Positions 37,386-51,113 of a DNA stretch of 64,000 nucleotides are shown piece after piece. How positions within the stretch are numbered: the stretch's first letter is position 1; every line of letters starts with the position of its first letter. Under the pieces are notes generated by a model that saw only the letters and a list, made by a program, of their open reading frames with translations, searched no databases and was not told the origin of the DNA. A program made the position numbers and the translations under genes. The stretch covers positions 1 through 64,000 of the forward strand of contig NZ_JACCBP010000004.1 of assembly GCF_013408655.1 (NCBI RefSeq), given 5' to 3'. The stretch comes from Pigmentiphaga litoralis. GTDB lineage: Bacteria > Pseudomonadota > Gammaproteobacteria > Burkholderiales > Burkholderiaceae_B.

Positions 37386-38309
37386 ATGCCCGAACCTACC
37401 TTGCCACTCACTCCGCTGCAAACCCGCGTTGCGCGCGAGATCATTTCTGTTGCACGCCGCGAAAATCGCCGGGTTGGGGATCCCATGCCCGAGCTGCTGC
37501 TGGCCGAAAAAATTGGCACGTCCAGAACGCCTGTGCAGGTTGCCATGCGGTATCTGGCCACCATCGGCGTCGTGCGGCAGGACGCGAATCGGCGGTTCTT
37601 CATGGCCAAGAACTCGGACGAGCTTGGGGGGATGGCCGAGGCATTGGGGGCAACGCCCGATGACCCGCTGTATCTGGATATCGCGCAGGCCCGGTTGTCA
37701 GGAACCTTGCCGGACGAAGTCAACGAGTCCGAACTCATGCGACGCTTTGACGTGGCGCGATCCACGCTTCGAAAGGTGCTGTCGCGCATCGCGAACGAAG
37801 GCTGGGCCGAACAGCGGGTCGGGAGCGGCTGGCTTTTCCTGCCGATGATCAACTCCCCTGAGGCCTACGAGGAAAGCTACCTGTTCCGGCAATCGATCGA
37901 GCCTGCCGGCTTGCTCAGCTCGAGCTTCCAGTCCGACCCAGCCAAGCTGCTGGATATCCGGCGCGAGCAAGAGCACATCGTCGCGGGCGGCTTCGAGACC
38001 ATGACTGCCATCGAACTGTTCGAGGCGAACAGCCGCTTTCATGAAACGCTTGCGACGTGGTCGGGCAATCGTTTCATTGCCCAGTCCGTGCGCCGCATGG
38101 ATCAACTGCGCCGCCTGGTCGAATACAGCCAGGCTGCGAACCGCCCGGCCCGTTCCACCCAGGCGCGCGAGCATCTGGCCATTCTTGATGCGGTTGCAAA
38201 GCAGGACCTGGTGGGTGCGGCCGGCCTGATGCGCAGCCATCTGGAAGATGCCCGGCGCGCCAAGGTCTTTGGTGCAGGCAACATTGTGGTGAAGAAGACG
38301 TCTGGCTGA
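37386..38309 (+). CDS. GntR/FadR-type regulator with two apparent winged-helix domains
   Basis: A 307-residue protein. Residues about 8-78 form a GntR-like winged helix (LLAEKIGTSRTPVQVAMRYL). Residues about 90-150 form a second one (ESELMRRFDVARSTLRKVL, then a wing ending GSGWLFLP). Residues about 160-290 form an FCD effector domain with the metal-site histidines in SRFHETL, REHLAIL and RSHLEDAR. Normal FCD regulators are about 220-250 residues with one HTH. It lies between two TctC genes, probably repressing them and acnD-prpF until a carboxylate ligand binds. A strong terminator follows. Confidence 0.85.
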   Translation: MPEPTLPLTPLQTRVAREIISVARRENRRVGDPMPELLLAEKIGTSRTPVQVAMRYLATIGVVRQDANRRFFMAKNSDELGGMAEALGATPDDPLYLDIAQARLSGTLPDEVNESELMRRFDVARSTLRKVLSRIANEGWAEQRVGSGWLFLPMINSPEAYEESYLFRQSIEPAGLLSSSFQSDPAKLLDIRREQEHIVAGGFETMTAIELFEANSRFHETLATWSGNRFIAQSVRRMDQLRRLVEYSQAANRPARSTQAREHLAILDAVAKQDLVGAAGLMRSHLEDARRAKVFGAGNIVVKKTSG

Positions 38310-39637: not shown

Positions 39638-41290
39638 TCAGCAACAGCCGCCAAACGGGCTGTTTCGATAGAACGGGCCGAGGTCGTCGGCCAGATGCCC
39701 CACCACGTCTTTCCACCGCGCCGCAGCGGCATTGCCTTTCAGGCTGGCGCGGACCTGCGCGATCAGTTCCTTGCGCATGCCAACTTCGTCGACAGTGATG
39801 ACACGGCCGGCTTCGACCACTTTGCGGCCGCCGATGTACACGTCCTGCAGATGGCCGGCGTGGGCGCGGGCGAGCAGGATGTCGAGCGGGTCGACGTCGT
39901 CGAACAGGGCGTCGTCGTCGACGGCGTCCCAGTCGAGGACGAGCAGGTCGGCGGGGGCACCTGCGACGAGTCGGCCGCCTGACACCGTGGCGGTATCGGC
40001 AAGGGTGCTGCTGGCAATGTGGCCAACGCCGTTGCTATCAAAGCGGGCGGCACGGCCAGACGAGGCGCCGACTGCCATGTCACCGAGAGTGCCGGCTTCT
40101 CTAGCTTCGCCCGCCATTCCCACCACGCTGCGCCGCCCATTGCGCGCGGCGAAGCGCCATAGATCTGCCGGCGTCATGGCGACGTCGTAGCCCCAGCCGC
40201 GGTGCAGGGCGTAGGCCAGGCGCATTTCGCGCAGGGCGTCGTCGTCTTCGTCCAGGGCCAGGCCGTCAAGGCCCATGGCGACGCGGCAGCCCTGGCGCAG
40301 CATCTCGCCAACGGGGGCGATGCCGGACCGGATGCCGAGGTTGGAGCTGGTGTTAATGGCGATGGTGACGCCGCGTTCGGCGAGCAGTGCAAGTTCGTCG
40401 GGCCGGGCCCAGACGCAGTGCGCCAGCGTCAGGCGCGGGCTGAGCAGGCCGATGTCGTCCAGGTAGCGGACCAGGCCGTCCGGAAAGGTGCGGTCGGCCC
40501 AGTCGCGCTGGTAGCGGGTTTCAAGCAGGTGCATGTGCACGGGCCGGCCGGTGTCGGCGCTGGCCTGGGCGATGGCCGACAACAGCGGCGTGCTGCACCA
40601 CTGCACGCCGCCGGGCCCGTATTGCAGGGTGACGTGGTCGGTGTAGCCGCCGGCTTGGAGCATGGCGCCGACGTCGTCGACGCGGGCCAGGTAGTCGGCG
40701 GGCGTCAGGGGCGACGGTTTGAGGCGGGCGGCGACTTCGTCGCGGATGGCGGGGCGGACAGCTTGCAGGACGGTGGCGTCGTCGGCGTAGCCGATGGCGT
40801 GCCGGTCGCTGATTGCCACCGCGAAGCCGATGTTGACGCCGACGTCGCGGGCCGCGCGGGCGACGGCTTCGACTTCGTCGACGTACGGCAGGCTGCCCTG
40901 CACCCGGGTGTAGTGGACCATGAGGTGGGACACGCCGTGCCGCACCGATCGGGCGAACGACGTGGCCGCGCCCAGGTAGGGGTCGGCCGGGGGCGTGACG
41001 CCGAGGAAGGGCAGCCACCCTTCCAGCGGCCGCGCAAAGGCGCCGAGGGTGGCGCTGCGGAAGGTGCGGGCGTGATCGTGGGCGTTGGATAGTGCGGGCA
41101 GGACAAGGCGGCGGGAAGACGGCGCGCTGGAAGACGCAGAACTATTGATCGCCGCAATCCTGCCGCCTTCGATGACGACCTGCACCTCTTTGCGCGCAGC
41201 TTCACCACCAGGGTCGGCCAGCAACCTATCGGCATCGATGATGTGGGCGCCGGTGGCGCCCCGGTATTGCATGTTGCGTGGGTCCGCCAT
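39638..41290 (-). CDS. Amidohydrolase, chlorohydrolase/deaminase (TrzN/guanine deaminase-like) subfamily
   Basis: A 550-residue metal-dependent hydrolase. Metal-site features of subtype III amidohydrolases are visible: SNAHDHA (HxH) near residue 75, HMHLLET, LAHCVW and the Asp of MGLDG. Members deaminate or dechlorinate ring nitrogen compounds such as guanine, cytosine-like bases and s-triazines. GAGGAGG lies 5 bases before ATG. It is the last gene of the ten-gene minus-strand operon, 141 bases after the first binding-protein gene. The substrate is unknown; a deamination step in heterocycle catabolism is inferred from family and context. Confidence 0.82.
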   Translation of the reverse strand: MADPRNMQYRGATGAHIIDADRLLADPGGEAARKEVQVVIEGGRIAAINSSASSSAPSSRRLVLPALSNAHDHARTFRSATLGAFARPLEGWLPFLGVTPPADPYLGAATSFARSVRHGVSHLMVHYTRVQGSLPYVDEVEAVARAARDVGVNIGFAVAISDRHAIGYADDATVLQAVRPAIRDEVAARLKPSPLTPADYLARVDDVGAMLQAGGYTDHVTLQYGPGGVQWCSTPLLSAIAQASADTGRPVHMHLLETRYQRDWADRTFPDGLVRYLDDIGLLSPRLTLAHCVWARPDELALLAERGVTIAINTSSNLGIRSGIAPVGEMLRQGCRVAMGLDGLALDEDDDALREMRLAYALHRGWGYDVAMTPADLWRFAARNGRRSVVGMAGEAREAGTLGDMAVGASSGRAARFDSNGVGHIASSTLADTATVSGGRLVAGAPADLLVLDWDAVDDDALFDDVDPLDILLARAHAGHLQDVYIGGRKVVEAGRVITVDEVGMRKELIAQVRASLKGNAAAARWKDVVGHLADDLGPFYRNSPFGGCC

Positions 41291-41386
41291 CGCGCCCTCC
41301 TCTATGCTGGCCGCACGTGGCGCGACCCGCTTCGATCAGGTTGCGCGCTCGCTCACGTGGGCCAGTTCTTCAAGATTATTGAGCCG

Positions 41387-41406
41387 TGATCGTCGGACGA
41401 CGATCA
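41387..41406. repeat. Perfect inverted repeat TGATCGTCG-ga-CGACGATCA
   Basis: A 9-bp perfect dyad with a 2-base centre between the amidohydrolase and binding-protein genes. No T-run follows on the minus strand. It may be an operator or an mRNA stem-loop that sets relative expression. Confidence 0.7.
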
Positions 41407-41431
41407 TCGAAACTCGACCACTGTTTTCCGT

Positions 41432-42478
41432 TCACTTCACCGAGAACTGACGTTCCGCCACGGGCGGCAGGAAGCTGCGGTCGAACACGTCTTTGGCTGC
41501 CGGCTTGGCGGTCAGTTCGAAGGCTTTGGCAAGCTGGTCGATGGAACGCGCAAACCGTTCGTCGTTCACGTCACCGACGCCGTTCTTCATGGCTTCGGGT
41601 GTCAGGACCACATTCTTCAGCGCGTACATCAGGCGGCGCTTTTCCAGGTCTTTGTTGATGAGCGGTTCGCGTTTGGCCAGTGCGTCGATCGCGGCGTCGG
41701 GATTGGCGATGGCATCACGCACGCCCTTGTTGATGGCGCGCACCAGGCCCGCCACGACTTGCGGTTTTTCCTTGATCAGCTGACGGGACACGAGCACGCC
41801 GTTGCCGTACAGGTCGATGCCGTTTTCCGAATAGTTGATCCAGCGGATGTCCTTGTCCGGGTCGACGTTTTGCGCGACCAGGTTCATGTAGCTGGTGACG
41901 GTGAACACGGCGGACGCTTCGACCTGGTCGCGCAGCAGCATCTGTTCTTGCAGGTTGGGCGCCATGTTGGTCCACGTGACCTTGGAAGGATCGATGCCGT
42001 TCTTTTCGGCCAGTACCGAGAACATCTTGTAGGCCGCGCCGCCGGCGGGCGAGCCGATGGTCTTGCCCTGCAGATCCTTGACCGTGCGGATGTTGCTGCT
42101 GGCCTTGGTCATGATCGCGTAGGGCGCGGTGTTGTACAGCATGTAGACCATCACGGGCGCCTGGTCGGGGCGGGTGGCGGCGGCTTGCACGATGGCGTTC
42201 ACGTCGCCAAAGGACGCCTGGTAGGTGCCGGCCATGACCTTGGTCACGGCATTGGCGGAGCCGTCACCTTGGTCGACGGTAAGGTCGATTTTTTCTTGCG
42301 CAAAATAGCCCTTGTCCATCGCCAGGTAATACCACGCGTGGATCCCCTGGAGCTTCCAGTCGAGCACGAACTTGATCGGCGTGACAGCAGCGGGCGCTTG
42401 CGCGTGGGCCATCATCGGGGCGAACACGGCGGCGGCGAGTGCGCCCAGAAGTACGCGGCGGAGCGGGACAAAACGCAT
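41432..42478 (-). CDS. ABC transporter substrate-binding protein (NMT1/SsuA-ThiY type)
   Basis: A 348-residue periplasmic protein with a signal peptide ending AHAQ-APAA (about residue 27). The core KFVLDWKLQGIHAWYYLAMDKGYF and GDGSANAVTKVMAGTYQ belong to the NMT1/THI5-like family, whose members bind sulfonates, thiamine pyrimidines, riboflavin, nitrate or formylaminopyrimidine. AGGA precedes the ATG. It shares the same general fold and motif order with the protein at 47730, and both appear to serve a single permease/ATPase. The cysteine-rich site of THI5 is absent. Confidence 0.87.
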   Translation of the reverse strand: MRFVPLRRVLLGALAAAVFAPMMAHAQAPAAVTPIKFVLDWKLQGIHAWYYLAMDKGYFAQEKIDLTVDQGDGSANAVTKVMAGTYQASFGDVNAIVQAAATRPDQAPVMVYMLYNTAPYAIMTKASSNIRTVKDLQGKTIGSPAGGAAYKMFSVLAEKNGIDPSKVTWTNMAPNLQEQMLLRDQVEASAVFTVTSYMNLVAQNVDPDKDIRWINYSENGIDLYGNGVLVSRQLIKEKPQVVAGLVRAINKGVRDAIANPDAAIDALAKREPLINKDLEKRRLMYALKNVVLTPEAMKNGVGDVNDERFARSIDQLAKAFELTAKPAAKDVFDRSFLPPVAERQFSVK

Positions 42479-42522
42479 GGTGGTGATCCTGGTGAATGAA
42501 AGAAAAAGGGACAGCTTTTTAC

Positions 42523-42936
42523 TTAGATCGCTTCGAACAGCACGTCTTGCGCGCCTTCCCACAGCACCTTTTTGCCCAGGGCTTGAAGGTGTTCCTGGCC
42601 CTCGACCAGGGTCAGGAAGTGGTTGCCGGCGAGCTGGCCCATGCGGCTGGAAAACGAGCACGGGCCATAGGCCAGGATGATCTCGGTTTCGCTGTAGCCG
42701 CCCGGGTAGAACAGGATGTCGCCCTTGGACGGATGGCTGGTGTGGTTTTCGAAATCGACGCCCAGGCGGAAGTCGCCCAAGGGAATCCAGCAGCCTTCGC
42801 CGCTCCAGCGCACGTGGATCAGCTTTTGTCGGTAGGGCAGCAGTTTTTCGAAGGCGGCCACGGTCAGTGGCGCGTCGGGATGGGTCTCGGCAATGAAGGT
42901 GTAGCCGCCGGCCGTCATGCGAATGCGTTTGCTCAT
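42523..42936 (-). CDS. DUF3830 family protein (cyclophilin-like fold)
   Basis: A 137-residue protein of DUF3830. Family blocks include ERLxP-like AAFEKLLPYRQKLIHVRWSGEGCW, HPSKGDILFYPGGYSETEI and the GxCxFSSRMGQLAGNHF segment. DUF3830 genes are commonly found beside hydantoinase, allantoate or ABC transport genes, but no activity is established. Its ATG overlaps the upstream LOG gene's stop as ATGA, so it is translationally coupled. The start (MSKRIRM at 42936) follows from that overlap. Confidence 0.8.
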   Translation of the reverse strand: MSKRIRMTAGGYTFIAETHPDAPLTVAAFEKLLPYRQKLIHVRWSGEGCWIPLGDFRLGVDFENHTSHPSKGDILFYPGGYSETEIILAYGPCSFSSRMGQLAGNHFLTLVEGQEHLQALGKKVLWEGAQDVLFEAI

Positions 42937-43559
42937 GTCTTTTCTATCCACTTGGTGACCGTCGGGGCTTTCCAGTCGGCCAGCCCGTCGAGCAGGGACG
43001 CCGGGTCGGCATCGATCACGATCATGTCGCGGTGCTCGGTCTTCAGGAAGCCTTCGTCCACGGCGCGCGTCAGCATGGCGCGCATGGGGTCATAGAAGCC
43101 GCGCACGTTCAGCGCGCCGCAGGCTTTGGTGTGGTCGCCCAGTTGCGTGAGCGTGGCCGCCTCGAACAGTTCTTCGAGCGTGCCGAGGCCGCCCGGCATG
43201 GCGATGAAGGCGTCGACCAGATCGGCCATGCGCGCCTTGCGGGCCCGCATGTCGGTCACGATTTCGTGTTGCGTCAACTTGGGATGCAGATGGCCGCGGT
43301 CATGCAGGCGTTGGTTGATGATGCCAACGACCCGGCCGCCGGCGGCCAGCGCAGCGTCGGCCATCAGGCCCATCAGGCCTTTGTGCGTGCCGCCATAGAC
43401 CAGGGTCAGTCCGCGGCGGGCGATTTCGGTGCCCAGGGCGCGGGCGGCATCGGCGTATTCCGGCGATGCGCCAAAGTTGGATCCGCAAAAAACCGCCACG
43501 CTTTTCAGCAGGGTGGGCGACGCGGTGATCGCGTCGATGGGAGAGGTCGGTGTCGTCAT
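42933..43559 (-). CDS. LOG-family nucleotide phosphoribohydrolase-like protein
   Basis: A 208-residue Rossmann-fold protein of the LOG/TIGR00730 family. It has VFCGSNFGASPEYADAARALG at the N-terminus and the signature PGGLGTLEELFEA (near residue 115; PGGxGTxxE). LOG enzymes split nucleoside 5'-monophosphates into free base and ribose-5-phosphate; in plants and some bacteria the base is a cytokinin. In this operon it may release a heterocyclic base for the amidohydrolases. It is 25 bases after the permease gene and coupled to DUF3830. Confidence 0.85.
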   Translation of the reverse strand: MTTPTSPIDAITASPTLLKSVAVFCGSNFGASPEYADAARALGTEIARRGLTLVYGGTHKGLMGLMADAALAAGGRVVGIINQRLHDRGHLHPKLTQHEIVTDMRARKARMADLVDAFIAMPGGLGTLEELFEAATLTQLGDHTKACGALNVRGFYDPMRAMLTRAVDEGFLKTEHRDMIVIDADPASLLDGLADWKAPTVTKWIEKT

Positions 43560-43584
43560 GAAAATTGTCGAAACGTTGATGGGC

Positions 43585-44418
43585 TCAGGCCATGGCCATG
43601 TCGGTCTTGCGTTGGGTCCAGCCGGTCAGCCGGCCTTCGATATACGCAGAGATGGCATATAAGAGCACACCCAGCACGGCAAGGATGAACAGGCCGGCAA
43701 ACACCAGCGGCACATCAAAGTTGCCACTGGCAATCATCATGACGTTCCCGATCCCCTTGTTGGCGGCCACGGTTTCGGACAGCACGGTGCCGACGAACGA
43801 CAGGGTGATGGCGATCTTGAGCGACGCGAACAGGTAGGGCAAGGCGCGCGGCAGGCCCACGTTCCACAGGATGTCGCGCTTGCTGGCGCCAAGCACCTTC
43901 AGCACGTCTTCCAGTTCGGGCTCGGTCGTTGCCAGGCCGGTAGCGACGTTCACCACGACCGGGAAGATGCTGATGACCAGCGAGGTCAGGATCGCGGGCA
44001 CGGTGCCCGAGCCGAACCAGACCACGAAGATCGGCACGACGGCCACTTTGGGGATACTGGAAAAGCCGACCAGCAGCGGATAGGCCACGTCATAGGCGAG
44101 GCGCGACGAACCGATGATGACGCCGATCACGACACCCACCAGCACGCCCAGCGCGAAGCCAACTACGGTGGTGTACAGGGTCTGCACGGTGTGCGGCCAC
44201 AGCAGCGGAAATTTCTGCCACAGCACGACGGCGATCTGCGACGGCCGCGGCAGCACCAGGTCGGACACGCCGCTGGCCAGGCAGATCACTTCCCACAACA
44301 GGAAGAAGCCGACCAGCGTCAACGCCGACAGCAGGTAGCGTTTGGTTTTGGGATTCATCCGCGAGGCGGGCTTGGCTGCGGCCTTCACGGCAGGGATCGA
44401 GGGGGATGCCGCGCTCAT
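43585..44418 (-). CDS. ABC transporter permease (SsuC/TauC type)
   Basis: A 277-residue inner-membrane protein with six helices from about residue 30. The EAA loop is visible as LKVLGASKRDILWNVGLPRA near residue 185. It is the only permease in the operon, so it probably works as a homodimer. AAGGAG precedes the ATG, and the ATG overlaps the ATPase stop as ATGA. The hydrophilic Ala/Lys-rich 25-residue N-terminus is cytosolic. Confidence 0.92.
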   Translation of the reverse strand: MSAASPSIPAVKAAAKPASRMNPKTKRYLLSALTLVGFFLLWEVICLASGVSDLVLPRPSQIAVVLWQKFPLLWPHTVQTLYTTVVGFALGVLVGVVIGVIIGSSRLAYDVAYPLLVGFSSIPKVAVVPIFVVWFGSGTVPAILTSLVISIFPVVVNVATGLATTEPELEDVLKVLGASKRDILWNVGLPRALPYLFASLKIAITLSFVGTVLSETVAANKGIGNVMMIASGNFDVPLVFAGLFILAVLGVLLYAISAYIEGRLTGWTQRKTDMAMA

Positions 44419-45335
44419 GCGACTCTCCTTGGGGTGGTGACGGCGGGGGTGGCCGCCGGGGTGGCGGCCGCATCGGCAACGGCATGGGCAACCGCATCCG
44501 CGGCAGCTTCCTGCGCATCGCTGTCGGTGCGTGCATGGGCAATCCGCATGCGCAATTCCTGCACCAGCGTCGCGAACTCGGGCGCGTAGCTCGATTCCAG
44601 GGTGCGCGGGCGGGCGAACTCCACCGGCCGGTCTTCAAGAATGCGGCCAGGGCGCGAGCTCATGACACAGATGCGATTGGCCAGGTACGCCGATTCGCGC
44701 AGGTCATGCGTCACCAGCAGCACCGTCGGGCGCTTGGTGATCCAGAGGTCCTGCATGATGGCCCACAGCTCTTCGCGCGTGAACTGGTCCAGTGCACCGA
44801 AGGGTTCGTCCAGCAACAGCAGTTGCGGTTCGTGCACCAGCGCGCGGCACAGCGATGCGCGCTGCAGCATGCCGCCCGACAGTTGCCACGGACGCTTGTC
44901 GCCAAAGCCTTTCAGGCCGACCTGCGCCAGCAGCGCTTCGGCGCGTTCGGCGAATTCGCCCTTTTTCTTGCGGGCGTAGTCGGAACGGAAGGGCTCGACG
45001 ATCTTGAGCGGGATCATGACGTTTTCGCGGATCGTGAGCCACGGCAGCATCGTCGGGTTCTGGAAAGCGAGCCCGATCCGCACGCACGGGGCATGCGGGT
45101 TATGGATGCGCGACCCGGGCGATCCGGCTTCGCGGCCGCCCACGATCACGGCGCCCGAGGTGGGCGTAAGCAGCCCGCCAACCAGCTTCAGGATCGTGGA
45201 CTTGCCGCAGCCGCTGGGCCCGACCAGGGCCACGAAATCGCCCTTGTCGATGCGCAGGTCGGTGTGATCCAGCGCGATCGTGCCGCCGCCATATTGCAGC
45301 GAGACGTTGGCCAGATCGATGAACGATTGGGTCAT
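44415..45335 (-). CDS. ABC transporter ATP-binding protein (SsuB/TauB type)
   Basis: A 306-residue ATPase. Walker A GPSGCGKST (near 40), signature LSGGMLQRASL, Walker B LLLLDEPFGALD and switch His VTHDLRES are all intact. The C-terminal 40 residues are Ala/Pro/Thr rich, beyond the usual 255-265-residue length. Its ATG overlaps the stop of the cyclic amidohydrolase gene, and its stop overlaps the permease start, so importer and enzyme are tightly coupled. Confidence 0.93.
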   Translation of the reverse strand: MTQSFIDLANVSLQYGGGTIALDHTDLRIDKGDFVALVGPSGCGKSTILKLVGGLLTPTSGAVIVGGREAGSPGSRIHNPHAPCVRIGLAFQNPTMLPWLTIRENVMIPLKIVEPFRSDYARKKKGEFAERAEALLAQVGLKGFGDKRPWQLSGGMLQRASLCRALVHEPQLLLLDEPFGALDQFTREELWAIMQDLWITKRPTVLLVTHDLRESAYLANRICVMSSRPGRILEDRPVEFARPRTLESSYAPEFATLVQELRMRIAHARTDSDAQEAAADAVAHAVADAAATPAATPAVTTPRRVA

Positions 45336-46804
45336 GGCAGTTTTCCTTCGATCACGTCGGCGGACGGCCGCGCGCTGACAGGGGCGCCTTCCGGCCGCGT
45401 CAGGATCGCGGTGGTGTAGGTCTCGGTATTGCGCGGCTTGGGCGTGGGCATCTTCTGGACGGCCTTGACCGATACGCCCCAGCCGGCGGCGTCCTGCACC
45501 AGGGCCCCGTCACGCATCACGAAGCGGCCGCGCACCAGCGTGTGGATCGGGTAGCCCTTGACGACGCGGCCGTTCCACGGCGAGATCTTGCTCACGCTTT
45601 GCAGCTTGCCCTGGTTGACCACGCCCTGCTTGTCCATGTCGACGATGGCGATGTCGGCGTGCGAGCCCGCGGCGATCACACCCTTGACGCCATACAGGCC
45701 CCAGGCCTTGGCAGGGTTGACCGAGCTCCAGCGCACGTAGTCCATCAGCGTGGCGCGATCCTTGTTGATCTCGGTCAGCATCAGGGGCATTTGCGTTTCG
45801 ACACCTGGGAAGCCGCAATCGCAATCCCAGATGCTTTCGCGGGTTTTTTCTTCGGGCGTGTGCGGCGCGTGGTCGGTCGCGATCATGTCGATGGTGCCAT
45901 CCATCAGCGCATCCCATAGCGGTTGGTTATGGCGTGCTTCGCGGATTGGCGGGTTCAGGCGCAGGATGCCGCCCAGGCGAGACATCTCGTTCACGTTCAT
46001 CAGCATGTATTGCGGGCAGGTCTCTGCCGTGACGTCCACACCGCGGCGCTTCGCCTCGCGCAGCAGGTACAGCGAGTCGGCCGAGCTGTGATGCGCGATG
46101 TGCACGCGGGCGCCGGTCCATTCGGCCAGCGTGACCACGCGGCCGATGGCTTCGATCTCGGCCACGGCCGGGCGCGCGGCCAGATGCGCGAAGGGGTCGT
46201 TGCGGCCGGCGGCCTGCAGCTTGGCCTGGCGGCGGGCCATGATGGACGAATTTTCGGCGTGCACGACGGTACGAATACCGAGCGGCGCCAGTTTTTCAAA
46301 GCCTTCGAGCAGGCAGCCGTCGGTGGGCGCGGGCAGGTTGCCGAAGGTGTTGCCCACAAAGGCCTTGAAGCTGGTGACACCCGCGTCCAGCAGTTCTTCC
46401 AGGCGGTCCACGGTGTCGTCACCGAACAGGCCGTGAATGCCGAAGTCCACATACGACGATTCCGCCGCCTTCTGCTTGATGCGCAGGGCTTCGACCGTGC
46501 CGGTGGCGGGGTTGGTATTGGGCATTTCGAACACGGTGGTCACGCCGCCGCAAGCCGCCGCGGCCGAACCGGTCTTCCAGGTTTCCTTGTTGGGATAGCC
46601 GGGATCGCGGAAGTGCACGTGGCTGTCGATGGCGCCGGGCAACAGGTACAGGCCGTCAGCGCGGATGTCTTCGCGGGCCGAGGGCATCAGGTCGTCATGA
46701 CCCACCGCGACGATGATGCCGTTATCAATGGCGACAGACGCCTCGATGATGTGATCGGGCGACACCACCTTGCCGCCGCGGATAACCAGGTCTACCTGAC
46801 TCAT
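45332..46804 (-). CDS. Cyclic amidohydrolase (dihydroorotase/allantoinase/hydantoinase-like)
   Basis: A 490-residue binuclear-metal hydrolase. The site is complete: DSHVHFRDPG (HxH, near 58), the carboxylated Lys in SFKAFVG (near 148), His in VVHAEN, His in IAHHSS and Asp in ATDHAPH (near 312). These enzymes open cyclic amides such as dihydroorotate, allantoin and hydantoins. Length and the DCDCGFPGVETQMPL block resemble allantoinase more than PyrC. AAGGA precedes the ATG. Being in an importer operon, it is likely catabolic. The real substrate is open. Confidence 0.87.
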   Translation of the reverse strand: MSQVDLVIRGGKVVSPDHIIEASVAIDNGIIVAVGHDDLMPSAREDIRADGLYLLPGAIDSHVHFRDPGYPNKETWKTGSAAAACGGVTTVFEMPNTNPATGTVEALRIKQKAAESSYVDFGIHGLFGDDTVDRLEELLDAGVTSFKAFVGNTFGNLPAPTDGCLLEGFEKLAPLGIRTVVHAENSSIMARRQAKLQAAGRNDPFAHLAARPAVAEIEAIGRVVTLAEWTGARVHIAHHSSADSLYLLREAKRRGVDVTAETCPQYMLMNVNEMSRLGGILRLNPPIREARHNQPLWDALMDGTIDMIATDHAPHTPEEKTRESIWDCDCGFPGVETQMPLMLTEINKDRATLMDYVRWSSVNPAKAWGLYGVKGVIAAGSHADIAIVDMDKQGVVNQGKLQSVSKISPWNGRVVKGYPIHTLVRGRFVMRDGALVQDAAGWGVSVKAVQKMPTPKPRNTETYTTAILTRPEGAPVSARPSADVIEGKLP

Positions 46805-46863
46805 GACTTCGTTCCTTGCTCAAATGCCCTGCGGATTGCCGTACCGGGTACTGAAGAAAATGC

Positions 46864-47655
46864 TTAGAGAGATGCCCATCCGCCGTCGACCGGCAGATCC
46901 GCGCCCGTGATCTGGCGCGACGCATCGCTGGCCAGGAACAGGCAGGCATTGGCGACGTCGTCGTCGACCGTCACGCGGCGCAGCGCGTAGTCCATCGCGT
47001 GTTTGGTCATGGCTTCTTCCAGCGTGATGTTCAGGCGCTTGGCCATATCGGCGCACACCTTTTCGCGGAACCGGGGGCCATCGACCATGCCCGGGGCGAC
47101 ATTGTTGACGTTGATGTTGTGCGGACCGGCTTCCAGCGCGAAGCTTTTGGTGATGCCGCGCAGGCCCCACTTGGATGCCGAATACGCCATGCGGCCGGCG
47201 CGGCCACGCATGCCGAAGGTGCCGCCCACGTTCACGATCTTGCCGTAGCGGCGCGCGATCATGCCGGGCAGCACGGCGTGCATGGTGTTGAAGCAGCCGG
47301 ACATGTTCAGGCGGACGATTTCGTCGAATTCCGCGGCGGTGGTTTCCCAGCCCGTCTTGCCGATCGGGCCCGATCCGCCGGCCACATTCACCAGCACGTC
47401 GACGCGGCCGAACGCTTCTTCGGCGGCGCGGCCCAGCGCTTCGGTCTGCGTGTCGTCGGTCAGGTCGCACGGAACGACCAGCACCTTGACGCCCAGGTCG
47501 CGCGCTTCGGCGGCCACGGGTTCGATCGCGGCCACGTCACGGCCGGTCAGCACCAGCGCGCAGCCTTCCTTGGCGAACGCCAGGGTGATCGCGCGGCCCA
47601 TGCCCTTGGCCGGACCGGTAATGACCACCACCTTGTCTTTCAACTGCAAATCCAT
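46864..47655 (-). CDS. Short-chain dehydrogenase/reductase (FabG-like)
   Basis: A 263-residue SDR. The cofactor loop TGPAKGMGRAI, NVAGGSG in place of NNAG, the catalytic YSASKWG and the C-terminal ITGADLPVDGGWASL are present. Acidic residue at the end of beta-2 is not obvious (TGRD), and cofactor choice is open. In the operon it lies between the second binding protein and the cyclic amidohydrolase. By analogy with RutE or serine-semialdehyde steps it could reduce or oxidise a ring-opened product, but this is inference. Confidence 0.87.
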   Translation of the reverse strand: MDLQLKDKVVVITGPAKGMGRAITLAFAKEGCALVLTGRDVAAIEPVAAEARDLGVKVLVVPCDLTDDTQTEALGRAAEEAFGRVDVLVNVAGGSGPIGKTGWETTAAEFDEIVRLNMSGCFNTMHAVLPGMIARRYGKIVNVGGTFGMRGRAGRMAYSASKWGLRGITKSFALEAGPHNINVNNVAPGMVDGPRFREKVCADMAKRLNITLEEAMTKHAMDYALRRVTVDDDVANACLFLASDASRQITGADLPVDGGWASL

Positions 47656-47729
47656 AATCTTTCTCGCGTGTTGCGTGATGAGTCGGCGCCCGCGCCTTGC
47701 GCAATCAGGCGCCGATCGGGGTCAGGGCG

Positions 47730-48773
47730 TCAGAGCTTGGACGGACGGTCCGCGCGGGCCGGCAGGAAGCTGCTGTCGAACACGTCGCCAGTCGATGGCG
47801 TCGTCGTCAATTGGTTGGCTTTGACCACCAGATCGATCGACTTCTTCAGGCGCGCTTCATCGACGGCGCCCAGGCCGATTTTGGCGACTTCCGGATGGCT
47901 CATGTCGCGCTTGATCGTGGCCAGCAGCTTTTCCTTTTCCAGTTCGGGCTTGAGCAGCGGTTCGCGCTTGAGCACGGCGGCCAGGCCCTCGTCGGGGTTC
48001 GCCACCACTTCCTTGATCGCCTTGTTCAAGGCGCGCAGGAAGCCCTTCACGGCTTCGGGGTTCTCTTTGGTGAACTTGCGCGAGAACATGATGGTGTTGG
48101 AGTACAGGTCCAGGCCGTAGTCGGCATAGCGGATGAAGCGCAGGTCTTTTTCCGGATCCATGCCGCTGGCCTTGGCCGCGAAATACACCGTGTTGATGTA
48201 GCCGAACACGCCGTCCACCTGGTCGCGGATCAACATCTGTTCGCGCAGGTTGGGCGCCATGTTGCTGATCTTGACCTTGCTCAGGTCAAAGCCTGCGGAA
48301 CCCGCCAGGGTCGGGAAGAGCTTGAGCGCGCCGTCATTGGCCGGGCCGCCCAGCGTCTTGCCTTCGAAATCCTTGGGCGTCTTGATCGGGCTGTTGGCCT
48401 TGACGACCACCGTGAACGGGGCCGAGTTGTACAGCGTGTAGACGCCCACGGGCGCATCGGCCGGGCGCTTGGCCGCAAAGTCGATCAGCGCATTCATGTC
48501 GCCAAAGGCCGCGGTGTAGGTACCGGCCGCCACCTTGGGCACGCCAGCGGCCGAGCCTTCGCCCTGGTCGATTTCAACGTCCAGGCCTTCCGCCTTGAAG
48601 TAACCCTTGTCCTGCGCCAGAAAGAACCAGGCTTGCGGGCCCTCGTATTTCCAGTTCAAGGTCAGCTTGATCTTGGTCTGCGCGCTGGCTGCGGTTGGCA
48701 GCACGGCGAAGGTCAGGCCCAGGGCCGTGGTAACGGCGGCCGACACGGCAAACTTCTTGAAACTCGCAATCAT
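47730..48773 (-). CDS. ABC transporter substrate-binding protein (NMT1/SsuA-ThiY type), second copy
   Basis: A 347-residue periplasmic protein with a signal peptide (lysine pair, hydrophobic core, ASAQ near residue 32). LTLNWKYEGPQAWFFLAQDKGYF and GEGSAAGVPKVAAGTY match the paralogue at 41432 position by position in many places. AGGAG precedes the ATG. It is the second gene of the operon, separated from the single permease and ATPase genes by two enzyme genes. Two receptors for one translocator would broaden the range of ligands taken up. Confidence 0.88.
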   Translation of the reverse strand: MIASFKKFAVSAAVTTALGLTFAVLPTAASAQTKIKLTLNWKYEGPQAWFFLAQDKGYFKAEGLDVEIDQGEGSAAGVPKVAAGTYTAAFGDMNALIDFAAKRPADAPVGVYTLYNSAPFTVVVKANSPIKTPKDFEGKTLGGPANDGALKLFPTLAGSAGFDLSKVKISNMAPNLREQMLIRDQVDGVFGYINTVYFAAKASGMDPEKDLRFIRYADYGLDLYSNTIMFSRKFTKENPEAVKGFLRALNKAIKEVVANPDEGLAAVLKREPLLKPELEKEKLLATIKRDMSHPEVAKIGLGAVDEARLKKSIDLVVKANQLTTTPSTGDVFDSSFLPARADRPSKL

Positions 48774-48867
48774 GAAATGCTCCTGAGGGGTGGCGGAGGA
48801 CACGCGGGGTAATGCGGAAAAAGCGGGGATCGGTGTTGCGTGATGCGATGCGTTGACGGCTGCCGGC

Positions 48868-49653
48868 TCAGGCCTGCTCGCGCAGTGCGCCGGTCAGTGC
48901 GGTCGACGTCGCCACGAAGCCATGCAGCTGGCGCACGATGAAATGAATGGCCTGGGTCACGTACTCGGGCGACGCGGTGCTGCACGCGTCGCTCAGCAAA
49001 ATGTTGTCGTAGCCAATGAAGGCGGCGTCCTGCAGGGTCGAGAACACGCAGCGGTCGGTGTTCACGCCGGCGTACAGCAAGGTGGTGATGCCCTGCTGGC
49101 GCAGCAGGCTGTCCAGCTCGTTGTCCCAGAAGCCGCTCAGGCGATGCTTGTGGACAGTGATGTCGCCGGCGGCCACCGGCAGTTCTTCCACCACCTGCGC
49201 GCCCCAGCTGCCCTGCACCACGCTTGGGCCATGGTCCAGCGGCGACGTCTCGGCATAACCCACGCCGTCAGCCGTGCGCTTGCCCTTGAACAGCACCGTG
49301 GGCGGCAGGTTCAGGCGGTCGGCGCGAATGCCCCAGTTCACCCACACCACCCGGCCCGCCGCGGCGCGCCAGGCGTCCAGCAAGGCGGCGATGGCGGGAA
49401 TCGGACGGCGCATGGGCGACACGTCGATGCCCTTCTGGCCGAACCAGCCGTCGGGGTGGCAGAAGTCGTTCTGCATGTCGATGATGATCAGCGCCGTGGC
49501 CGCCACGTCGATTTCGATCGGGTGGTCATCCGCGGCGAATTGCACCGGACGCGGCACATGCGGCGGCCGCACCAGGCTGAGGGCGTCGCCACGGCGCGTC
49601 CAGACGTTGCCGGCGGCGGGGCCAAAAGTGGTGTCGGAAGTCGGAAATGTCAT
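48868..49653 (-). CDS. Isochorismatase-family cysteine hydrolase (RutB/N-carbamoylsarcosine amidase-like)
   Basis: A 261-residue amidase of the isochorismatase fold. The catalytic triad is visible: Asp in LIIIDMQNDF (near 55), Lys in ITVHKHRLSGF (near 165) and Cys in AGVNTDRCVFST (near 200). Related enzymes cleave ureidoacrylate (RutB), N-carbamoylsarcosine, nicotinamide and biuret. It is the first gene of the ten-gene operon, so it is likely central to the pathway. A longer frame to 49767 is in the control region and is not preferred; the ATG at 49653 begins MTFPTS. Confidence 0.85.
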   Translation of the reverse strand: MTFPTSDTTFGPAAGNVWTRRGDALSLVRPPHVPRPVQFAADDHPIEIDVAATALIIIDMQNDFCHPDGWFGQKGIDVSPMRRPIPAIAALLDAWRAAAGRVVWVNWGIRADRLNLPPTVLFKGKRTADGVGYAETSPLDHGPSVVQGSWGAQVVEELPVAAGDITVHKHRLSGFWDNELDSLLRQQGITTLLYAGVNTDRCVFSTLQDAAFIGYDNILLSDACSTASPEYVTQAIHFIVRQLHGFVATSTALTGALREQA

Positions 49654-49809: not shown

Positions 49810-49869
49810 TTGCCGTTTGACCGCTTCAATTGATTGCCGTTTTAGCGTTACTCTGTTGCCGATACGGCA
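49810..49869. promoter_or_regulatory. TTGCCG half-site array, probable LysR operator
   Basis: TTGCCG occurs three times at 49810, 49834 and 49856 (24 and 22 bases apart, about two helical turns). The last forms the perfect dyad TGCCG-ATA-CGGCA (49857-49869). The array lies in the 476-base divergent spacer (49654-50129) between the operon and the lysR gene. Apart from it I see no strong promoter in the spacer. Confidence 0.5.
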
Positions 49870-50129
49870 TCGGTTGACGGATAGCACGGTAAACAGGGCG
49901 TCTTGCGGTGGGCGGTGCTGGCATACAGATTGGCTGGGCGGGCACCGGCGGATGCTAGCCCGCAGGATCACGCGGCGCGTTATGTCAGGTCTGCGAGATG
50001 GCGGGACGGCTGTCGGGTGCTAACGCACCAGATCGGTGCACCATTGTGGGGCGGCGACGTCTCCAACACCCTGTTCTTGCCCGGTCAGTTCACCGGCCAG
50101 GACGGCCCTGATACAAGGACACCCTTCCA

Positions 50130-51113
50130 ATGAACCATCTGCGCTTTCTGCGTTATGTCGACGAAGTGGCCCGCGTGGGGTCGATCCGGCAAGCGGCCGA
50201 GCGGCTGCATGTGGCGCCGTCGGCCGTCATCCGGCGGATCCAGGACCTGGAGGACGAACTGGGCACGGCGATTTTTGAACGCCTGCCCCGCGGCATGCGG
50301 CTGACCACCGCGGGCGAGCTGTTCGTCGACTACATCCGCAGCCGCAACGCCGAGCTGGACGGCGTGCGGTCGCAGATCGAAGAACTGAAGGGGCTGCGGC
50401 GCGGCAATGTGCGGCTGGTCATCAGCCAGGCACTGGCGCCCGCCTACCTGCCGCAGGCCGTGGCCACGTTTCGCAAGACGCATCCGCTGGTCGCCTTCGA
50501 GGTCGATGTGGGCGACCACGTCCACGCGCTGACGTCGCTGCGCAATTTCGATACGGACCTGGGACTGGTGTTCAACCTGCCGCCCGACGCGGACGTGGAA
50601 ACCATTGCGCAGTTCGATCAGAAGCTGGTGGCCGTGATGCACCGCGACCACCCGCTGGCGGGACAGGAAACGGTAAGGCTGCGCGATTGCACGGACTATC
50701 CGGTGGTGTTGCCCGACCGGGACATTGCCGGCCGGCAGATGCTGGAACGCTTCATGATGCGGTCATCAATTTCGCTGCGGCCGCTGATCGAAAGCAATTC
50801 GTTCGAGTTCCTGCGCGGCTGCCTGTATTACGACAACGCCATCTCGTTCCAGATCGACATTGGCGCCGTGACGGATGGCGGTGCGGTGGTGGTCAAGGAC
50901 ATTGCGGACCGGAATTTTCCGCGTGGAAAACTGGTGCTGGCCAGCCTGCGCAACCGCCAGCTGCCGACCATTGCGCACGCGTTTGCGGAACACATCCGGC
51001 AGACGCTACATGGACGTCAGGATGGCAACGGAAGCGAGATGGAAAGCCCTGTCGGACTAGAATCCGACCGCGATGACGGCGACGGGTCGCAGGATCGCAG
51101 CGAGGCGGCTTGA
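50130..51113 (+). CDS. LysR-family transcriptional regulator
   Basis: A 327-residue regulator with an N-terminal HTH (about 3-62: LRFLRYVDEVARVGSIRQAAERLHVAPSAVIRRIQDLE) and a periplasmic-binding-type effector domain (about 90-295). It diverges from the ten-gene operon, the standard arrangement for a LysR regulator of a catabolic unit, and probably activates it when bound to a substrate or intermediate. AAGGA lies about 10 bases before the ATG. The C-terminal 25 residues are acidic and unconserved. Confidence 0.9.
   Translation: MNHLRFLRYVDEVARVGSIRQAAERLHVAPSAVIRRIQDLEDELGTAIFERLPRGMRLTTAGELFVDYIRSRNAELDGVRSQIEELKGLRRGNVRLVISQALAPAYLPQAVATFRKTHPLVAFEVDVGDHVHALTSLRNFDTDLGLVFNLPPDADVETIAQFDQKLVAVMHRDHPLAGQETVRLRDCTDYPVVLPDRDIAGRQMLERFMMRSSISLRPLIESNSFEFLRGCLYYDNAISFQIDIGAVTDGGAVVVKDIADRNFPRGKLVLASLRNRQLPTIAHAFAEHIRQTLHGRQDGNGSEMESPVGLESDRDDGDGSQDRSEAA

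Follow-up and report, generated by a model that had tools for sequence, protein, structure and literature searches.

The closest described relative of the locus analyzed here is the cyanurate module of plasmid pADP-1 from Pseudomonas sp. ADP, atzR-atzDGEHF, whose AtzR protein is a cyanuric acid-responsive regulator according to PMC6834077. Three other described systems share parts with it, namely the atzD cluster of Rhizobium johnstonii 3841, the type I dihydroorotases, and the Rut pathway. We analyzed a window of 64,000 nucleotides (C4:1-64000) of the 6.17 Mb genome of Pigmentiphaga litoralis, in which ten genes, all on the minus strand (39638-49653), form an operon divergent from a LysR-type gene (50130-51113, plus strand). 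On balance, we favor the reading that this operon is of the AtzR type, is kin of the pADP-1 module, and serves to obtain nitrogen from cyclic ureides resembling cyanurate. Such a locus bears on what AtzD-type enzymes evolved for and on the origin of the plasmid genes, and this can be tested with one operon.

The operon and the pADP-1 module have in common a LysR regulator of the AtzR clade, a divergent layout, an inverted-repeat box between regulator and operon, a downstream amidase, and, in related loci, AtzD kin. In contrast, the window operon has no AtzD, AtzE/G, AtzH, or AtzF, carries NMT1 instead of BMP receptors, and adds a short-chain dehydrogenase/reductase (SDR), a cyclic-ureide amidohydrolase (HYD), a LOG-type protein, DUF3830, and a TRZ/ATZ-type amidohydrolase (AHY2). 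The chromosomal gene set thus combines close regulator relatives with a new enzyme cast. It would seem, with somewhat better than even confidence, to be mechanistically of the AtzR/cyanurate kind, yet it is no classic member of the atzD operons, atzD being absent from it. The R. johnstonii 3841 cluster (L215) shares AtzD, isochorismatase-family hydrolases, a formamidase, and an ABC importer with the loci described below, but no HYD-, LOG-, or DUF3830-like gene is annotated in its 15 kb; it has a BMP receptor and a GntR gene, and the isochorismatase-fold amidase of the window (ICH) is only 32% identical to its two isochorismatase-family hydrolases.

Gene set and conservation

The original prediction, made from the letters of the window, had described ten same-strand genes of named families, a divergent LysR gene, and three four-base overlaps. 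Domain-family matches bear out the families, the LysR gene lies where expected, and the overlaps, all TCAT, were found at 42933-42936 (LOG/DUF3830), 44415-44418 (permease/ATPase), and 45332-45335 (ATPase/HYD). The second of these requires a permease start at 44418, whereas the gene caller favored 44388; probable starts for the amidase, the second receptor, and DUF3830 are 49653, 42478, and 42936, respectively.

A genome collection was scanned with HYD and the best 80 loci were taken. Thirty-four of them encode proteins with 52-85% identity to HYD, mostly accompanied by other operon genes, and come from Pigmentiphaga, Variovorax, Pseudacidovorax, Pseudomonas, Verticiella, Dactylopiibacterium, Aureimonas, Skermanella, Elioraea, Novosphingobium, and others; the remaining 46 (35-38% identity) are without other operon genes. 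With six further regions and three annotated plasmid loci, minus one locus without a called gene, 42 unique loci were obtained, many of them cut by contig ends and two (L021 and L030) so poorly gene-called that they contribute little to the counts. Three loci judged to be duplicates (L130, L135, and L138, of L002, L013, and L003, respectively) are left out of the 42-locus counts and kept in residue counts and trees.

HYD was found in 41 of the 42 loci, followed by SDR (35), LysR (32), the ATPase (31), the permease and the first receptor, SBP1 (30 each), DUF3830 (27), ICH and the second receptor, SBP2 (22 each), AtzD (18), AHY2 (16), and LOG (14). A cytosine-deaminase/AtzC-like deaminase occurs in five loci, never with AHY2, and an acetamidase/formamidase in four, never with ICH. 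The two members of each pair give the impression of interchangeable enzymes that serve one step. HYD orthologues have diverged to approximately 52-61% identity between the beta and alpha classes, with the gene set retained. As for the proposed check on conserved synteny, the gene set and much of the gene order recur in related genomes; the operon is therefore beyond chance, and we regard the ten-gene operon as confirmed to be real and conserved. Gene content, the conserved set, and co-occurrence are direct observations, as are the kinship of regulator and palindrome and the conserved catalytic residues presented below.

A compact relative outside these loci (L191; genome G335, C84) groups a HYD-like gene (48%), a DUF3830 gene (58%), and two SDR genes (60% and 46%). 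A gene for an isopenicillin-N-synthase-like oxygenase (named by eye) is a repeated neighbor of the operon in L022-L025, L028, L133, L134, and L136, and in the Novosphingobium kin it is accompanied by a TonB-type receptor (by eye) and a HyuB-like gene.

Regulator, palindrome, and AtzD homologues

The LysR protein is 51.6% identical to AtzR of pADP-1 over 289 amino acids, whereas an unrelated LysR of the same genome reaches only 30% over 100 amino acids. No AtzR entry was found among the 18 PDB sequences matching the window LysR. In a tree built by a quick method, AtzR of pADP-1 falls inside a 33-row clade (SH-like approximate likelihood ratio test, SH-aLRT, 100), of which the remaining 32 rows, including the window LysR, are operon-linked; it stands beside 21 beta/gamma rows (SH-aLRT 84), on a long branch. 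A second LysR of L133 lies outside the clade that holds AtzR.

Between atzR and atzD of pADP-1 lies GTGCCGGATCGGCAC, which we take to be the AtzR site, reportedly that of Porrua et al. The LysR-operon intergenic region of the window carries TTGCCGATACGGCAT at 49856-49870 (plus strand), an AtzR-type palindrome that differs from the pADP-1 sequence in its outer base pair. The pattern WTGCC-N5-GGCAW has 21 matches in the 1.46 Mb of the 80 scanned loci: 13 upstream of the first gene of the operon, two upstream of SBP2-deaminase units (L002 and L003), and six elsewhere. Those 13 come from the 15 beta/gamma loci that retain this stretch; in L005, further genes intervene between palindrome and LysR. 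Among the further unique loci, L131, L133, L134, and L142 have a core-promoter palindrome, and SBP2 units with a palindrome of their own were found in five unique loci (L002, L003, L131, L132, and L134). Since a palindrome precedes both, core and deaminase unit seem to belong to a single regulon.

The window genome and 100 related genomes were compared (101 in all). AtzR homologues (E<=1e-60) were found in 10/10 genomes with a HYD orthologue (at least 69% identity) and in 0/91 others (Fisher p 5e-14), and the AtzD family in nine of the ten against two of the 91 (Fisher p 3e-10), but both p-values overstate independence because six of the ten operon-bearing genomes belong to one genus.

A cyanuric acid hydrolase homologue (AtzD) lies within the locus in 18 of the 42 unique loci, where the gene often found behind HYD encodes this ring-opening amidohydrolase. 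With the equivalog model of cyanuric acid amidohydrolase (cut-off 360), the copy of the Pigmentiphaga locus L002 reaches 538 bits; its identity to AtzD of pADP-1 is 62%. It retains the Arg of the SRGAS stretch, which we place as Arg188, a residue replaced by Gln in the barbiturase subgroup according to PMC4051656. The window genome has two AtzD genes elsewhere, one of them beside an AtzR-like LysR. The AtzD tree joins the pADP-1 enzyme to the copy of the window genome itself (97/91), with 15 beta operon copies as the sister group of the two (98/97). Given the LysR and AtzD placements, the plasmid atzR-atzD genes and the chromosomal gene set share descent; direct ancestry would go beyond this evidence. 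The original prediction had found no nameable pathway for the LOG/DUF3830 combination, a statement that the AtzR-homologous LysR, the AtzR-type palindrome, and the AtzD homologues overturn.

Several observations weigh against assigning the operon to the cyanurate type. The AtzR clade leaves out the LysR proteins of two operon loci, L014 and L136, as well as the LysR encoded next to the AtzD of the window genome. No core-promoter palindrome was found in L012 and L014 (the two other beta/gamma loci retaining the stretch), in L132 and L136, or in the alphaproteobacterial loci, and one match in 64 kb, close to the 0.63 expected by chance, carries no significance by itself, so that the palindrome argument relies on position and conservation. 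The scoring for AtzR was confined to 23 candidates per genome at most, and most of the operon-bearing genomes are, as said, congeneric. AtzD is absent from the window operon, from the operon-bearing genome G001, and from the Azospirillum loci read, whose genomes were not searched; this makes it unlikely that HYD and SDR act on cyanurate alone. In L008 and the alphaproteobacterial loci, the AtzD copies are placed apart from the beta operon clade, some of them with Rhizobium AtzD, so that AtzD entered such loci more than once. Finally, the transporter is of the NMT1 type, unlike the BMP type of pADP-1, and SDR, LOG, and DUF3830 are not known to us as participants in any cyanurate pathway.

Other AtzD-family genes have different surroundings. 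The second AtzD of the window genome (L129, C1:1167500-1187400), 49% identical to the L002 copy, lies among genes for an amidase, an AtzH-like protein (58% to AtzH of pADP-1), an ABC transporter, and FAD monooxygenase-like and xanthine-dehydrogenase-like proteins, several of these named by eye; it belongs to a different ring pathway, and a third AtzR-like LysR (43%) is encoded approximately 13 kb away. In L216 and L220, an AtzD-family gene adjoins fdrA, DUF1116, and carbamate kinase genes, presumably an oxalurate-carbamoyltransferase-like set here joined to ring opening. On an Antarctic Polaromonas plasmid (L217, 6977-8119), one is located among ureidoglycolate lyase, polysaccharide deacetylase, racemase, and hydA genes.

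Ring opener and candidate substrates

HYD (45332-46804, minus strand; PF01979) has the full set of metal ligands together with the motifs HxHxR, MPNT, and DHAPH, and their residues R66, N96, and H315 are invariant in all aligned rows with a letter at the position (43/43, 44/44, and 45/45, respectively, the window and the three duplicate loci included). In dihydroorotase, these residues hold the carboxylate of the substrate. Type I dihydroorotase 4yiw has all three motifs, and 2gwn, in which Gln replaces the first metal His, retains the Arg as well as MPNT and DHAPH. Neither the allantoinases 8hfd and 3hm7 nor the hydantoinases 1gkr and 1nfg have the Arg or MPNT, 1gkr having a His at the last place, so that the full signature occurs in none of these four chains. 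With the signature present in all aligned orthologues, the HYD substrate probably bears a carboxylate. Unlike type I dihydroorotases, HYD is catabolic by context and its overall scores are higher against L-hydantoinase and allantoinase chains than against dihydroorotases. The earlier description of HYD as allantoinase/hydantoinase-like with a full metal site was right about the metal site, whereas the label needs correction to include the dihydroorotase-type signature.

HYD passes the TIGR00857 cut-off (334.5 vs. 279.05), and the nearest solved structure to ICH is RutB. Both are compatible with catabolism of orotate or dihydroorotate, in which SDR would reduce or otherwise handle the ring, HYD would open dihydroorotate to carbamoyl-aspartate, and ICH would remove the carbamoyl group. 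This would leave the AtzR-type regulator, the palindrome, the AtzD genes, and the replacement of ICH by a formamidase-like protein unexplained, and we consider it unlikely.

Our boldest guess concerns a carboxylated relative of cyanurate such as oxonate (5-azaorotate), which would make sense of AtzR, AtzD, and a dihydroorotase-like opener together. Here, the operon and its AtzD partner would serve a natural pathway for oxidized purine products, cyanurate together with a carboxylated s-triazine such as oxonate, which we regard as an unlikely version. The Ser-less SDR would reduce oxonate to its dihydro form, HYD would open dihydro-oxonate to a ureidoglycine-type aminal, DUF3830 would cleave this aminal, giving glyoxylate, and ammonia would be set free by ICH or by the formamidase-like protein; pADP-1 would have drawn atzR and atzD from this reservoir. 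Among the titles listed by literature searches there was none on this operon or on oxonate together with cyanurate, most subscription papers being outside their coverage, and no paper on a barbiturase and hydantoinase gene cluster. The title of a 2025 paper places cyanuric acid in Paramecium secretions (PMC12342508), the passages available from it being silent on the source.

A plain allantoin or hydantoin operon, with HYD as an allantoinase, the name given to several annotated homologues, appears improbable. HYD narrowly passes the AllB model TIGR03178 (359.4 vs. 357.85), its plasmid homologues are annotated AllB, DUF3830 elsewhere adjoins urate/allantoin genes, and a malate synthase-like gene (by eye) follows HYD in Novosphingobium L024/L025/L028. 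However, the Arg66, Asn96, and His315 motifs set HYD apart from 8hfd and 3hm7, and no allantoate or ureidoglycolate enzyme is found among the operon families. The database name of HYD may thus be misleading, and homologues annotated "AllB" are possibly misnamed. That the operon arose as a recent response to industrial s-triazines (herbicides, melamine, isocyanurates) is very improbable, since the HYD divergence between beta and alpha classes within a retained gene set is too old for it, despite the AtzR/AtzD relatives and the TRZ/ATZ-type deaminase.

Two known routes that had been cited as parallels are not supported: no HyuA/HyuB or creatininase for creatinine/N-methylhydantoin use was found among the operon families, and the Rut pathway shares an isochorismatase-fold ureido hydrolase with the operon but no other Rut family, ICH scoring 132.9 against the RutB cut-off (TIGR03614) of 377.95.

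We thus return to the AtzR-type operon for cyanurate-like ureides, an old gene set of soil and plant-associated bacteria through which nitrogen-rich rings are probably imported and broken down for ammonia; the reactions, their order, and the substrate are what we infer. LysR would sense cyanurate or a close analogue and activate the operon via the palindrome. Rings would be imported by SBP1 or SBP2 with the single permease/ATPase, and AHY2 would strip an exocyclic amine from the ring that SBP2 delivers, after which its route would merge with that of the SBP1 ring. The ring would be reduced or oxidized by SDR and opened by HYD, which would grip its carboxylate in a dihydroorotase-like manner; the ring or its opened aminal would be processed with the help of DUF3830, and the ureido or biuret product would yield ammonia/CO2 through ICH. 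Cyanurate in free form would be left to the AtzD that the genome encodes at another site, next to an AtzR-like LysR of its own. The initially proposed import, deamination, ring opening, and amide hydrolysis of a nitrogen heterocycle fits the conserved parts.

DUF3830 and the remaining genes

DUF3830 (42523-42936, minus strand; PF12903) has a predicted cyclophilin-like fold (AlphaFold2 model, mean predicted local distance difference test 89.6), with 3kop as best PDB match, followed by TM1367 and the Pictet-Spenglerases KslB/McbB. Nine annotated records outside the operon loci were inspected. In six of them, hydA or a racemase gene is a few genes away at most; of the others, one belongs to a haloarchaeal urate cluster, one is located near allE, and one is without such a neighbor. 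A survey of 398 genomes gave 28 positives, and the regions of 20 were read. Seven of these, from a single family, adjoin a gene of 311-312 amino acids and a UraD-like gene (L193, L194, L195, L197, L207, L208, and L209); the sole 311-amino-acid protein scanned, that of L193, is a PuuE allantoinase (549 bits). HYD/SDR, HydA-like, and AllC-like neighbors occur in one region each, and the other ten have no reference-set neighbor, the DUF3830 gene itself being unlabelled in three of them. Judged by gene neighbors in the surveyed regions, DUF3830 often accompanies ureide metabolism, regardless of the ring opener, which gives the family a context among ureide and urate genes; it may be a missing step of urate/allantoin breakdown. 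A literature search on DUF3830 found no paper.

ICH (48868-49653, minus strand; PF00857) is biuret/ureido hydrolase-like and has the Asp-Lys-Cys triad of BiuH (D97-K207-C240 in a 299-amino-acid frame), invariant in 25/25 rows, duplicates included. It scores 118.5 against the BiuH cut-off of 370 (NF050097) and, as both this and the RutB cut-off are failed, we take it as a putative separate subfamily. A Gln matters in TrtA/BiuH according to PMC7948467. At this specificity position (Q202 in TrtA), placed by alignment, the window and 17 of the 25 rows have Gln and eight have other residues, and the identification of ICH as BiuH by the critical Gln was dropped on account of these eight rows.

SDR (46864-47655, minus strand; PF13561) conserves Y158/K162 in 39/39 rows, as well as Thr146 (39). 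Position 145, which we take from the motifs of SDR enzymes to be the usual place of the catalytic Ser, is Gly in 38 rows, Cys in one, and never Ser, which hints at an unusual redox step. The putative deaminase AHY2 (39638-41290, minus strand; PF01979) has HxH, H, H, D, and HxxE motifs invariant in 18 rows, one gap aside, and keeps a mononuclear deaminase-type site. The best PDB match of the deaminase of the Pigmentiphaga loci is AtzC, yet its identity to AtzC of pADP-1 is 34%, and the identification as AtzC was rejected. The LOG-type nucleotide phosphoribohydrolase homologue (42933-43559, minus strand) is above the TIGR00730 cut-off, its PGGxGTxxE motif being invariant in 16 rows.

The transporter genes, also on the minus strand, encode the ABC ATPase (44415-45335; PF00005), the permease (43585-44418; PF00528), and the two NMT1-type receptors (both PF09084), of which SBP1 (47730-48803) is periplasmic and SBP2 (41432-42478) accompanies the deaminase. 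Use of hydroxymethylpyrimidine (HMP)/thiamine pyrimidines, hinted at by the NMT1 receptors alone, was dropped. Elsewhere in the window, positions 37386-38309 encode a GntR-family protein in which two GntR stretches and FCD were matched, with a TctC receptor gene next to it.

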